Shown here in pieces: positions 9,046 through 40,079 of a stretch of DNA of 64,000 bases. Where the stretch lies: assembly GCF_949774925.1 (NCBI RefSeq), contig NZ_OX458932.1, positions 868,001 through 932,000 on the forward strand. The letters are read 5' to 3'. Below the pieces are notes generated by a model. The model worked only from the letters and a program-made list of their open reading frames with translations. It was not told the origin of the DNA and searched no databases. Origin of the DNA: Candidatus Methylacidiphilum fumarolicum. Its GTDB lineage: Bacteria > Verrucomicrobiota > Verrucomicrobiia > Methylacidiphilales > Methylacidiphilaceae. The translations under genes were made by a program, and so were the position numbers. How positions within the stretch are numbered: position 1 is the first letter of the stretch; each line of letters begins with the position of its first letter.

Positions 9046-9861
9046 ATGATTCCACTGGAAGACAACTATATCGATGTGATTGGAAAAGCGCAAAGAGGGC
9101 TTAACATCAGTGACGAAGAGCTAGCAAAAAGAGCGGCTGTGCCTTTTGAGAAACTCCAGAGGGTTAAAGAAGGAGAGTTGGATGAGGAGGTTTTAGCAAG
9201 AATTGCTCCAGTGCTTGGTCTTGGGAAGAAGGCACTTTTGGATCTGGCTAAAGGTTCATATTACCCAAAAGATCAAGGGGTTATTCCTGGCTTCTTTCAC
9301 TTTAATACAAGATGGGAAGATATGACCGTTAACAATTATCTTTTATGGGATACGATGACAAAAGAGGCCGCGGCTTTTGATACGGGAGGCAATTGCACCG
9401 AAATGCTTGATGCTATAAAAGTACATGGGTTGCGTGTAAAATTCATTTTGCTGACGCATACGCATGCTGATCACATCGCTGAGCTAGGAAGGCTTAAACG
9501 GGCTGTAGAGGCTCCTGCTTATTGCTGTCAACTTGAGATTATTCCTGGAGCTGAGCCGTTCTCTCCAGGCAAGACATTTCAATTAGGTAATTTGTCCATT
9601 AGCTCTTTTCTTACTAATGGTCATTCTCCCGGAGGGGTTTCTTACTATGTTACTGGAGGAAAGAGAAATCTAGTCATTGTGGGTGATTCGCTATTTGCTG
9701 GCTCAATGGGAGGTGGTAATTATTCCTATACAGAGGCCTTAAAGAACAACCGGGAAAAAATTTTAACCCTACCTGATGACACGATTATATGTCCTGGTCA
9801 TGGACCATTGACAACGGTAGGTGAAGAAAAAGTCCATAATCCTTTTTTTGCTTTCAATTGA
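9046..9861 (+). CDS. Metallo-beta-lactamase-fold hydrolase with an N-terminal helix-turn-helix-like domain
   Basis: The 271-residue protein has two parts. Residues 10-70 (LNISDEELAKRAAVPFEKLQRVKEG...) resemble a small XRE-type helix-turn-helix. Residues 80-271 are a metallo-beta-lactamase fold with THTHADH (about 139-145), TNGHSPGG, GDSLF and CPGHGP, the metal-ligand motifs of glyoxalase II-like hydrolases. It probably hydrolyses a thioester or similar small ester in the cytoplasm; the substrate is unknown. AGGAG lies 7 bases before the ATG. A DUF5069 gene follows after 92 bases. The helix-turn-helix could be structural instead of DNA binding, since its recognition helix is weakly basic. Confidence 0.8.
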   Translation: MIPLEDNYIDVIGKAQRGLNISDEELAKRAAVPFEKLQRVKEGELDEEVLARIAPVLGLGKKALLDLAKGSYYPKDQGVIPGFFHFNTRWEDMTVNNYLLWDTMTKEAAAFDTGGNCTEMLDAIKVHGLRVKFILLTHTHADHIAELGRLKRAVEAPAYCCQLEIIPGAEPFSPGKTFQLGNLSISSFLTNGHSPGGVSYYVTGGKRNLVIVGDSLFAGSMGGGNYSYTEALKNNREKILTLPDDTIICPGHGPLTTVGEEKVHNPFFAFN

Positions 9862-9898
9862 TCAGAAAGTTATGAAATGATGCATTTGAATCCAAGGC

Positions 9899-9921
9899 TT
9901 TTCTTTCCTAAGGAAAGAAAA
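9899..9921. promoter_or_regulatory. Perfect 10-bp hairpin in the leader of the DUF5069 gene
   Basis: TTTTCTTTCC pairs with GGAAAGAAAA around TAA, 23 bases before the strong AAAGGAGGT ribosome binding site of the next gene. There is no T run after it on the plus strand, so it is not a textbook terminator for the upstream gene. It may be an attenuating or mRNA-stabilising hairpin. Confidence 0.4.
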
Positions 9922-9953
9922 ATAACGAATATAAACTTAAAAAAGGAGGTACA

Positions 9954-10394
9954 ATGAAATTAGTTCCCTTAATTGGATCTGGAGTTGCCGGTCCACTTGG
10001 TGTGCTGCATTTGCCAAGAATGTGGCTGAAATGTAGCCTGGCTGCTAAAGGCATGCTAGCTGATGGTTATCCCGACCTAGGTAAAGGGTTTGATGCGATG
10101 ACCATGAGGGCCCTTAATCTCACTGAAGACGAAGTGCGAAATTACATTAGAACCAATCTGCCAAGCTATACGGAATTTGAGGCTTGGATCGTACAAAAAA
10201 ATGGTGGGAAGATTGATGGAGCCAAGGTTGCCGCTCACAACCGGGCTGTTTTGCAGTATCATCATGACGCAGAGACAAAGAAAGCCATTTTGGAGGAAGC
10301 AGGTCTCAAAGATGATGGGACTATGCCCGATGCAGTGACTTTGAACGCAATCGAGGATTATGCCTGTTTCCATAAATGGCTAAAAAGCCAATAA
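9954..10394 (+). CDS. DUF5069 domain protein
   Basis: The soluble 146-residue protein has LGVLHLPRMWLKC near the start, followed by a helical DGYPDLGKGFDAMTMRALNL region and ending EDYACFHKWLKSQ. This pattern fits the DUF5069 family, which has no assigned biochemical role. The ribosome binding site AAAGGAGGT lies 6 bases before the ATG and is the strongest seen in this stretch, suggesting high expression. A hairpin precedes it and a clear intrinsic terminator follows 28 bases after the stop, so it is probably a single-gene transcript. The family assignment is from memory of its pattern. Confidence 0.65.
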   Translation: MKLVPLIGSGVAGPLGVLHLPRMWLKCSLAAKGMLADGYPDLGKGFDAMTMRALNLTEDEVRNYIRTNLPSYTEFEAWIVQKNGGKIDGAKVAAHNRAVLQYHHDAETKKAILEEAGLKDDGTMPDAVTLNAIEDYACFHKWLKSQ

Positions 10395-10422
10395 AAATAG
10401 AAGCTTCTTTTTGAGGCTAAGA

Positions 10423-10460
10423 AAGGCTAAGAGCACTTTTCTCTTAGCCTTTTTATTTTT
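10423..10460 (+). terminator. Intrinsic terminator after the DUF5069 gene
   Basis: AAGGCTAAGAG (10423-10433) pairs perfectly with CTCTTAGCCTT (10441-10451) around CACTTTT, followed by a T-rich tract to 10460. An 11-bp stem plus T run is a textbook rho-independent terminator. Confidence 0.9.
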
Positions 10461-10474
10461 GTGTTTTATTGTTT

Positions 10475-10498
10475 ATATTAATAATTCATTATCAATAG
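10475..10498. promoter_or_regulatory. Possible Fur/Zur-family operator before the metal transporter operon
   Basis: The region just before the ATG at 10503 is an AT-rich imperfect palindrome. On the minus strand it reads TTGATAATGAATTATTAATA, resembling the GATAAT-type repeats bound by Fur-family regulators. A metal-uptake operon directly downstream makes such a site sensible. The match is partial and no regulator gene is nearby. Confidence 0.35.
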
Positions 10499-10502
10499 CA
10501 TC

Positions 10503-11480
10503 ATGCGATCATTGCAAAAAAGAGGGCTTAGGGTTTTGTTTTGGCTGTGGGGTATAGGGATAGGTGTTTGGCTTTTGTCTTTTAAGTCTTATGGATTGGA
10601 GAAACTGAAAATTCTTACTTCTATTGCGCCCCTCTATTGTTTTTGTGTCAACATTGGAGGGGATTATGTCACAGTGAAAAACTTGATCTTCTTTGGAGCT
10701 GAGCCGCACGAAGTTTCCCTATCAATGCGGCAGATGCAAGAGATTCAAGATTCGGATTTGATTGTTATTAATGGATTGGGGATGGAAAGTTGGCTAGAAA
10801 AGGGGCTCAGTTCAGAAGAAAAAGCAAAAAAAATTGTTGTTTCTTCCGTAGGGATTGAACCTATTCCTTCCATTGGCTCTTTTAATAAACTTCCAGCAAA
10901 TAGCCCTTACTCTTTTAACCCGCATGTTTGGCTTGATCCTAACTTAGCTATTCAGCAAGTGGTGAATATTAAAAAAGCGTTATGCCAACGGGATCCACTC
11001 CATACAGAGACCTACGAAAAAAATGCTGCTTCCTATATATTCAAATTAAAAGAAATCGACCGGATGTATCGAGAAAAGCTTCAAGAGGTCACACCAAAAA
11101 AAGCCTATTTTTTTGATGATTCTTTTATGTATCTGACAAAGCGTTACGATATCCTTATAGCAGGTATTCTTGAAGAGTGCGGCCAAAGAGAAGGTCTATC
11201 GCCTAAAAAACTTGCAACCGCCATTGAAGTAATGAGGAAGGAAAAGCTCCCTTTCTTTTATACTCCTTTTTCAAAGAAAGCCCTTGTTATGGAAATCATT
11301 AAAGAAAGCCAGACTCGCAGCGGAGAAATCGATTCGATGGAAAGCGCCAATCCTGATCCATCCCTTTATGAGACTATAGCAAAAAAAAATTTATCGGTTT
11401 TAGTAGAAGTTTTTGGAAAAAAGCACATTTCTTGGTTCCACCACTTTGAGGTCTATGCCGATGGAAAAGAGCAGAATTAA
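10503..11480 (+). CDS. znuA: Zinc/manganese ABC transporter, periplasmic metal-binding protein (ZnuA/TroA family)
   Basis: The 325-residue protein has an N-terminal membrane/signal segment (VLFWLWGIGIGVWLLSF) and the two-lobe cluster A-1 fold. Visible ligands are His69 in GAEPHEVS and His141 in NPHVWLDP. The third ligand position, usually His in zinc-binding members (vFHDAF), is Asp in YFFDDSFMY. Manganese binders such as PsaA also have an acidic residue there, so the metal may be Mn instead of Zn. There is no His-rich charge loop, unlike ZnuA of E. coli. The ATPase gene overlaps its 3' end and the permease follows, so the three form an operon. Confidence 0.85.
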   Translation: MRSLQKRGLRVLFWLWGIGIGVWLLSFKSYGLEKLKILTSIAPLYCFCVNIGGDYVTVKNLIFFGAEPHEVSLSMRQMQEIQDSDLIVINGLGMESWLEKGLSSEEKAKKIVVSSVGIEPIPSIGSFNKLPANSPYSFNPHVWLDPNLAIQQVVNIKKALCQRDPLHTETYEKNAASYIFKLKEIDRMYREKLQEVTPKKAYFFDDSFMYLTKRYDILIAGILEECGQREGLSPKKLATAIEVMRKEKLPFFYTPFSKKALVMEIIKESQTRSGEIDSMESANPDPSLYETIAKKNLSVLVEVFGKKHISWFHHFEVYADGKEQN

Positions 11481-27957: not shown

Positions 27958-28299
27958 ATGCATGAACTCTCCCTGTGCGAATCATTGGTTTCTTTGCTTG
28001 AAGAAAAGGCTCTGGAATTAGGATTTCATAAGGTCAAAAAAATTGTCTTAAAGACAGGTCCCTTAGCCCTTATTGAACCAGAAGCGATGAAGTTTTCCTT
28101 TTCGATTGCTTCTAAAGGAACAATTGCCGAAGGAGCCGAACTTCATATTGAAGAAATTCTTGTCAAAGCTTACTGCTTAAGTTGTCAAAAGGAAGGATTT
28201 GTAGGAAAAATTGGCGAGAGCTGTCCTAACTGTGAGGGAGTCATGATCCTATCCGAAGAGGGCAAAGAATTAACAGTAGATAGTATAGAGGTGGAATAA
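27958..28299 (+). CDS. hypA: Hydrogenase nickel-insertion protein HypA
   Basis: HypA is the nickel-delivering maturation factor for [NiFe]-hydrogenase. The 113-residue protein starts [11 protein letters not shown] with the N-terminal nickel-binding His2. It has the pattern [19 protein letters not shown] and a zinc site CLSCQK...CPNCEG. The length is typical. It is four bases downstream of the maturation protease and two bases upstream of the endonuclease V-like gene, so all three probably share a transcript. Confidence 0.95.
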
Positions 28300-28301
28300 A
28301 C

Positions 28302-28994
28302 GTGGATGGGTGGCCTACAACCATAGAAGAGTTGATTTCGGAACAAAAAAGAATAGCCATGCTTTCTTTTTCAAATTGGGAAAAACCTTCCAAACCATTT
28401 GTCTGTGCTGCAGTCTTCATCTGTTACGGACAACCAAAAAGTGGACCTGGTAAAAAATTCGATCAAGGGTGGGTGGCTGCCATTGCCCTTTTTCCAGATG
28501 GACAAGTAAAGACTTTTGCTATTTCTGAAAGAGCTTTTTTCGATTATATTCCAGGGTTGCTTGCTTTAAGAGATGGACCATTATTAGAAAAAGCTGTTGT
28601 TGGACTTAATCTTCGCCCTGAGCTTCTTTTTGTGAATGCAACTTCAAGGGATCATCCTCACAGAGCGGGTCTGGCTCTGCATTTGGGTTATAAGCTGGAT
28701 ATTCCCACGGTGGGGATCACAAGAAAACCTTTAATAGCCAAAGGCGCTCTTCCAGGAAAGAACAGAGGAGATAGATCCGAACTTCGAATCGGGAACGAAA
28801 CTGTTGCCTTTTGGCTTAGGACGCAAGAGAACAAAGCGCCGCTTGTTGTGCATCCAGGCTACCGACTCGATTGGGAGACAGCGATAGAGATTGTTCTTCG
28901 CTATACCCTAAAATATAGGACTCCAGAACCATTAAGACTTGCTAGAAAAGCAGCTAGGTTATGTCGTGCAGGATTCGTGCGTTCAGCTCTGTGA
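28302..28994 (+). CDS. Endonuclease V homologue with altered catalytic residues
   Basis: The 230-residue protein keeps the endonuclease V scaffold: YIPGLLALRDGP, the HP block HPHRAGLALHLG, IPTVGITRKPL, and the end YRTPEPLRLARKAAR. The family cuts DNA or RNA next to deaminated bases using three acidic residues and a His. Aligned to E. coli Nfi, all four are changed. The first Asp (GADVGF) falls in CAAVFICYG, Glu of FREYP is Asp in LRDGP, Asp of VDGHG is Asn in VNATS, and His of TGHR is Tyr in PGYR. It therefore looks like a non-catalytic relative. The GTG start has GAGGTGG 8 bases upstream. It follows hypA directly. Confidence 0.8.
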   Translation: MDGWPTTIEELISEQKRIAMLSFSNWEKPSKPFVCAAVFICYGQPKSGPGKKFDQGWVAAIALFPDGQVKTFAISERAFFDYIPGLLALRDGPLLEKAVVGLNLRPELLFVNATSRDHPHRAGLALHLGYKLDIPTVGITRKPLIAKGALPGKNRGDRSELRIGNETVAFWLRTQENKAPLVVHPGYRLDWETAIEIVLRYTLKYRTPEPLRLARKAARLCRAGFVRSAL

Positions 28995-29077: not shown

Positions 29078-29380
29078 ATGCCCACTTTTATTATCCTCAG
29101 CCGATTAACTCCAGAAAGTATGAAAGAGCCATCAGAAATCAAAAATTTATCGAAGGTTGTTTCCAGTAAGATCAAAGAGGAATGCCCAGGGATAAAATGG
29201 AAGGAAAGCTATGCGACACTAGGAGAATATGACATTGTGGACATTGTTGAGGCAAAAGATGTAGCTGAGGTGGAAAAAGCAGCGATGATACTCCGGGGGT
29301 ATGGAAAAGAAATCACTGAAACGATGTCAGCCGTTCCCTGGGATGAATTTGTTTCATCTATGGCTATTCATAAGAAATAA
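29078..29380 (+). CDS. GYD-domain protein
   Basis: The 100-residue protein starts MPTFIILSRLTPE, with a short ferredoxin-like pattern containing ESYATLGEYDIVDIVEAKD, characteristic of GYD-domain proteins. These are small cytoplasmic proteins of unknown function. AAAAGGAG lies 8 bases before the ATG. It is on the same strand as the endonuclease V-like gene, 83 bases downstream, probably with its own leader. Nothing about regulation or partners is visible. Confidence 0.75.
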   Translation: MPTFIILSRLTPESMKEPSEIKNLSKVVSSKIKEECPGIKWKESYATLGEYDIVDIVEAKDVAEVEKAAMILRGYGKEITETMSAVPWDEFVSSMAIHKK

Positions 29381-39408: not shown

Positions 39409-40079
39409 ACTATGTGGGAGTTTTAGAGGTTCTTTTTTTGGATTTCCAAGGCTCTAAGGAGCTGATTTTCAGGGCGGAAAGGATCTGACGGGCCTGTCGG
39501 TTTCCTGCCGTGACCCCGCGGTGTTTGGTGCCTCCAACCTCTGCCTCGACGACGTGGACGGTACGGAGGTGAGTCAAGGCCTCTTCGGTGGAAAAGGGGA
39601 GCTTGGCTAGCTTTAGCTTTTTCTCCAAGAGTCGGTCGAGCAAGAAGGCCAAGGCAGCAACAAAGACATGGGCCTGGGACGGCTCTCGGATCATGGTGAT
39701 AGATCGGACGCGTCTCTAGGACATCCTTTAGCTTCCGAAAGACCCACTCCACTTGGCTAAGCTCCTTATAGGCACCCACGGCCTCCACCGCGGAGAGATG
39801 TTTTTCTTCTGTCATCGTCTTCCGCTGCTCCCCCTTTAAAAGCTTCACGAGCCGGTCCACATGCGGAGCCAAAAGCTCCCACCGCTCAAGATTGGCAATC
39901 GTCCGCTGCTTAATCTTCCCTCGATCGTAGTAGCTCTCCACCAGCTGAACATAGTGGACCACCTTCCCGCTTGGTCGCCGAATCGGCACAATCCGCAAAA
40001 ACATGAAGAGACATTATTTCGAAACGCCAACACATGCAAGTTTAATCGATCAATAACTTAAGAAAAGTTATTCATAGTG
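39409..40079 (-). mobile_element. Deletion derivative of an IS1634-like insertion sequence
   Basis: The GC-rich segment carries the start and end of a DDE transposase gene with the middle missing. CACTATG at 39409 and its complement CATAGTG at 40073-40079 could be remnants of terminal inverted repeats. The size (about 0.67 kb) is far below that of a full IS1634 element. Confidence 0.5.
39423..40004 (-). pseudogene. Transposase remnant, IS1634-like, internally deleted and frameshifted
   Basis: From 40004 the frame gives RIVPIRRPSGKVVHYVQL and ESYYDRGKIKQRTIANLER, the N-terminus of IS1634/IS1549-type transposases. It then jumps to KELSQVEWVFRKLKDVL and ETRPIYHH, the C-terminal part with the last catalytic Glu (VEWVFR). 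The intervening 300 or so residues are missing. A second frame at 39410-39694 continues AHVFVAALAFLLDRLLEKKL, so there is also a frameshift near 39700. The gene cannot make an active enzyme. Confidence 0.65.

Follow-up and report, generated by a model that had tools for sequence, protein, structure and literature searches.

Replacement of the EndoV metal site in an endonuclease V subfamily of Methylacidiphilaceae suggests a possible pseudo-nuclease

Endonuclease V (EndoV) binds metal through D43 and D110 together with residue 89, while K139 and H214 hold the 5' phosphate and residues G83, L85, G111, G113, G121 and L142 form the base pocket (PMC4650699); EndoV columns are numbered here as in T. 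maritima EndoV. In T. maritima EndoV, the D43A mutation abolishes activity but leaves DNA binding and scanning (PMC6300609), and mouse D52A shows no cleavage together with a stronger substrate shift (PMC4842958). Endo_dU (formerly DUF99; PF01949) lacks the first DEDD Asp, carries H, R or K in fourth place and cleaves dU-DNA all the same (PMC11585767), so loss of this Asp alone is no proof of lost cleavage in related proteins. No paper combining 'endonuclease V' and 'Methylacidiphilum' was found in the open-access literature.

The window, a 64,000-nucleotide stretch of the Candidatus Methylacidiphilum fumarolicum genome, encodes one protein of this kind. It is a clear EndoV homologue with a likeness far beyond chance, scoring 124.9 bits against the Pfam Endonuclease_5 profile (PF04493; E=4.3e-36; cut-off 23.4 bits) and E=2e-27 against PDB entry 6ozf (T. 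maritima EndoV). The likeness to described EndoVs (Nfi; T. maritima 2w35, S. avermitilis 3goc) extends over the full length and places the protein in the same family. Unlike them, it falls far under the NCBIfam equivalog cut-offs (PRK11617, 123.5 of 230 bits; Thermotogales model, 113 of 300). Automatic pipelines may label the subfamily endonuclease V, so its annotation calls for care. A profile search found no second PF04493 match in the 2.48 Mb source genome. The nearest named relative, in a scan of genome contigs with patterns reaching close relatives only, belongs to Methylacidiphilum sp. Yel (94% identity), and orthologues in genomes G024, G026 and G027 start at the identical position. An AlphaFold2 model computed from two rows, the window protein and its 94% identical relative L002, had a pLDDT of 35 and was set aside. 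The features considered below are as follows.

28302..28994, + strand: EndoV-like gene, an open reading frame of 230 aa with a GTG start and the PF04493 match
28288..28294, + strand: ribosome-binding site gaggtgg, read from the sequence, overlapping the end of hypA
28416..28418, + strand: F39 codon, at the catalytic D43 position of T. maritima EndoV; Phe throughout the family members
28572..28574, + strand: D91 codon, at the E89 position; Glu in G025 and the other two genera
28635..28637, + strand: N112 codon, at the D110 position; Asn in members except G019 and G022
28647..28655, + strand: R116-D117-H118, where H118 is the retained H116 and D117, at the A115 position of T. maritima, is a new residue that all subfamily members share
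28722..28724, + strand: R141 codon, at the phosphate-holding K139 position; Arg in all members
28851..28853, + strand: H184 codon, at the S182 position; His in all members
28944..28946, + strand: R215 codon, at the phosphate-holding H214 position; Arg in all members

The GTG start, the coordinates and a good ribosome site directly behind hypA were as the initial annotation had them, with gaggtgg lying about 8 bases 5' of the GTG and the hypA stop only 2 bases from the start of the gene. Aligned by MAFFT with a T. maritima row that matches the PDB sequence over residues 42-218, the window protein carries F39 for D43, D91 for E89, N112 for D110 and R215 for H214. Thus none of the three metal-binding residues D43, E89 and D110 is present as such, and both phosphate-holding positions, K139 and H214 (H or D), are Arg in all members, K139 being R141 in the window protein. 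H116, Y80, P82, R88 and H125 are retained in the MAFFT alignment. We considered misalignment of the D43 column and rejected it: profile-profile alignment by hhalign (the subfamily against ordinary EndoVs) gave the same placement for all four columns, with D43 on F39, and the aligned first strand holds no acidic residue in any member.

The gene was then followed through 13 genomes from three genera of the family, which consists of acidophilic methane oxidizers. Twelve of them carry it, with two copies in G025, a frameshifted copy in G022 and none in G018; in the other families of the order no EndoV-like gene was detected save one weak remote match in G037. D43 is Phe, and K139 and H214 are Arg, in every family member read, including the third-genus member, the N-terminal piece of which sits on another contig. 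The other two columns are less uniform. E89 became Asp only in G000, G024, G026 and G027, Methylacidiphilum genomes that include the source of the window, and is Glu in both copies of G025, in all second-genus members and in the third genus; D110 is Asn everywhere but in G019 and the frameshifted G022 copy, which have Asp. In the wedge (PYIP), the Tyr and the second Pro are kept, while the first Pro survives only in G019, being D, A or R elsewhere, and the third residue is I, V or E. G111 is Ala in all members and G113 is Ser or Ala in the genus of the window. Invariant in the subfamily are the wedge residues Y80 and P82, the pocket residues G83, L85, G121 and L142, and R88, H116 and R171, and the new invariant residues include D117, T140, W57, W171 and R219. 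Compared with EndoV, the subfamily thus keeps the wedge Tyr-x-Pro-Gly, R88, H116, H125, G136 and R171, but differs by D43F, mostly D110N, K139R, H214R, G111A, S182H and a mostly lost P79.

Ordinary EndoVs, as read from genome samples of the phylum or class (288, 387 and 384 genomes), from five plasmid-borne sequences and from E. coli and T. maritima, retain D43, E89, D110, H116 and K139, the exceptions being remote sequences from G037 and G271 that align poorly in the D110-H116 region. These two proteins (L014 in G037 and L076 in G271) are EndoV/DUF99-like, with a D43-like Asp, REL(P), GxAK and a changed D110-H116 region, and are possibly another divergent branch. Beyond Verrucomicrobiota, where sampling was thin (plasmids, phages, PDB and E. 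coli), phage and plasmid records gave more distant EndoVs only, the five plasmid sequences read being all ordinary, and viral contigs scanned for subfamily and ordinary EndoV motifs contained no EndoV. In the tree, all 12 rows of the subfamily group together as a single clade (support 100/100) on a long stem of 1.63. Given the residues kept in the outgroups and the single clade, the pattern has, within this sampling, one origin that predates the diversification of the family. Motifs resembling (N/D)-A-T-x-R-D-H-P may occur in other phyla as well, in which case the clade would be both wider and older.

These columns qualify the claim in the initial annotation that all four catalytic positions are changed. 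It holds for the window protein and its sub-lineage (D43F, E89D, D110N, H214R) and not for all homologues: alignment of the family returned normal residues at the E89 and D110 columns, where the changes are conservative (Asp and Asn) and not common to all members, and none at D43 or H214. The four listed changes were real; K139R and the retained H116 had been overlooked. As to a catalytic His at H214, the window protein does have Arg there, but the column is not strictly His, since E. coli Nfi and about half of the ordinary relatives have Asp.

Absence from G018 and the frameshift in G022 indicate that the gene is dispensable. In G022, a nearly complete second-genus genome, the middle stretch and the C-terminal part of the gene (L040; G022:C1:503743-504412) lie in other frames. 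These two cases, together with an AAG-type glycosylase in all genomes beside which the protein would be redundant, could point to a slowly decaying remnant. We regard this as very unlikely, because most pairwise comparisons give a dN/dS of 0.12-0.30 (about 0.1-0.3 among intact members; distant pairs are saturated and without value) and several pocket columns underwent a single change and have stayed fixed since. The frame is also open in ten further genomes and in both pieces of the G028 gene, which is split at a contig end, and in G025 the second copy is intact (97% identical) while the adjoining hypA copy is broken. The dN/dS values are similar to or somewhat above those of the neighbours hycI, hypA and mdoH. 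Ordinary EndoVs have 38 invariant columns; the subfamily keeps 19 of them unchanged, varies at 12 and carries a fixed replacement in every member at the other seven (A16L, D43F, F87L, G111A, K139R, G144A and S182H). Family-wide D43F, purifying selection and a single clade therefore support the view that the protein is conserved rather than decayed and that its canonical metal site is disabled.

The best explanation, to which we assign a probability of about 0.5, is that the family-restricted protein is a pseudo-nuclease derived from EndoV which grips nucleic acid without cutting it. Catalytic Mg2+ would not be bound in the EndoV manner, and nucleic acid would therefore be gripped and left uncut, so that the protein probably holds nucleic acid instead of cutting it in the usual mode. 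The wedge Tyr and the base pocket could probe for deaminated or distorted sites while the Arg pair (K139R and H214R) would act as a clamp on the backbone phosphate. It is plausible that the window protein binds deaminated nucleic acid, and it might protect, mark or hand over such sites in cells already equipped with UDG and an AAG-type glycosylase. Because UDG (PF03167) and AAG (PF02245) are present in 13 of 13 family genomes, loss of inosine cutting would be tolerable. Like the laboratory mutants T. maritima D43A and mouse D52A, the subfamily has lost the first Asp; unlike them, its change is natural, lineage-wide and accompanied by further fixed changes, and those mutants bind without cutting (PMC6300609, PMC4842958), as the subfamily would under this reading. 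Somewhat more tentatively, and as one joint reading, the proteins could form a natural pseudo-EndoV clade maintained by selection throughout the family, a counterpart of the D43A binding-only mutants, that either reads deaminated or distorted nucleic acid uncut or cuts through a site made of D117, H118 and H184. If the protein binds without cutting, it would give a clear example of an RNase H-like repair nuclease that has become a binder, and would serve as a natural reader of nucleic acid that is deaminated or distorted.

The main rival is an active nuclease of unconventional kind, in which D117, H118, H184 and Arg141/Arg215 would replace D43, E89 and D110 in a rebuilt site, perhaps with a dU substrate as for Endo_dU. 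The window protein lacks the first DEDD Asp (F39) and has a basic fourth residue (R215), the incomplete DEDD set with which Endo_dU cuts dU-DNA (PMC11585767), and a fixed new Asp and His (A115D and S182H) lie near the old site in sequence within strongly conserved surroundings. A match to PF01949 also covers the C-terminal half, but at 20.3 bits it is weak and under the cut-off of 32.7, and the profile search gave no PF01949 match above cut-off among the family genomes. Unlike Endo_dU, the subfamily has the EndoV layout and an N-terminal region absent from Endo_dU. Furthermore, UDG is already in every family genome, and positions 89 (D/E) and 110 (N/D) vary in a way that working-site residues do not. 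We therefore consider cleavage by a rebuilt site doubtful; should it occur, the subfamily would be the second EndoV-like branch, after Endo_dU, to dispense with the first Asp and would help to define this unexplained chemistry.

Probing for deaminated sites by the putative pseudo-nuclease need not extend to inosine, the recognition of which may be lost too in view of G111A, the G113 change and the loss of P79. The altered pocket (G111A, G113S/A) and wedge, together with features absent from ordinary EndoVs (a Gly-rich loop following strand 1 and the new invariant residues W57 and W171), could instead reflect a fold repurposed for a task that has nothing to do with damaged bases, such as binding a different RNA, a nucleotide or a partner protein. 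Invariance of Y80, P82, G83, L85, G121, L142, R88, H116 and R171 in the subfamily argues against such a role and makes it unlikely in our estimation.

The order mdoGH-hycI-hypA-endoV-GYD is common to G000, G026 and G027. In G024, endoV follows mdoH and precedes GYD without hycI or hypA between them, and the other genera have none of the mdoGH, hycI, hypA and GYD neighbours in common. Given these differences, gene order tells little about function, and we rejected a link to hydrogenase maturation via hypA, since neither G024 nor the other genera preserve the neighbourhood. The GYD-domain protein directly 3' of the EndoV-like gene (29078-29380) has 100% protein identity among G000, G026 and G027 and 93-94% in G024 and G025, and is far more conserved than its neighbours. 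In G025 the hypA-endoV segment is duplicated (L037:6949-11807), with the broken hypA copy beside the intact second endoV and a NADH dehydrogenase-like gene (9398-10675, - strand) separating the two endoV copies. Elsewhere in the window, at 39410-40004, the overlapping frames 39423-40004 and 39410-39694 (- strand) look like a broken transposase remnant.
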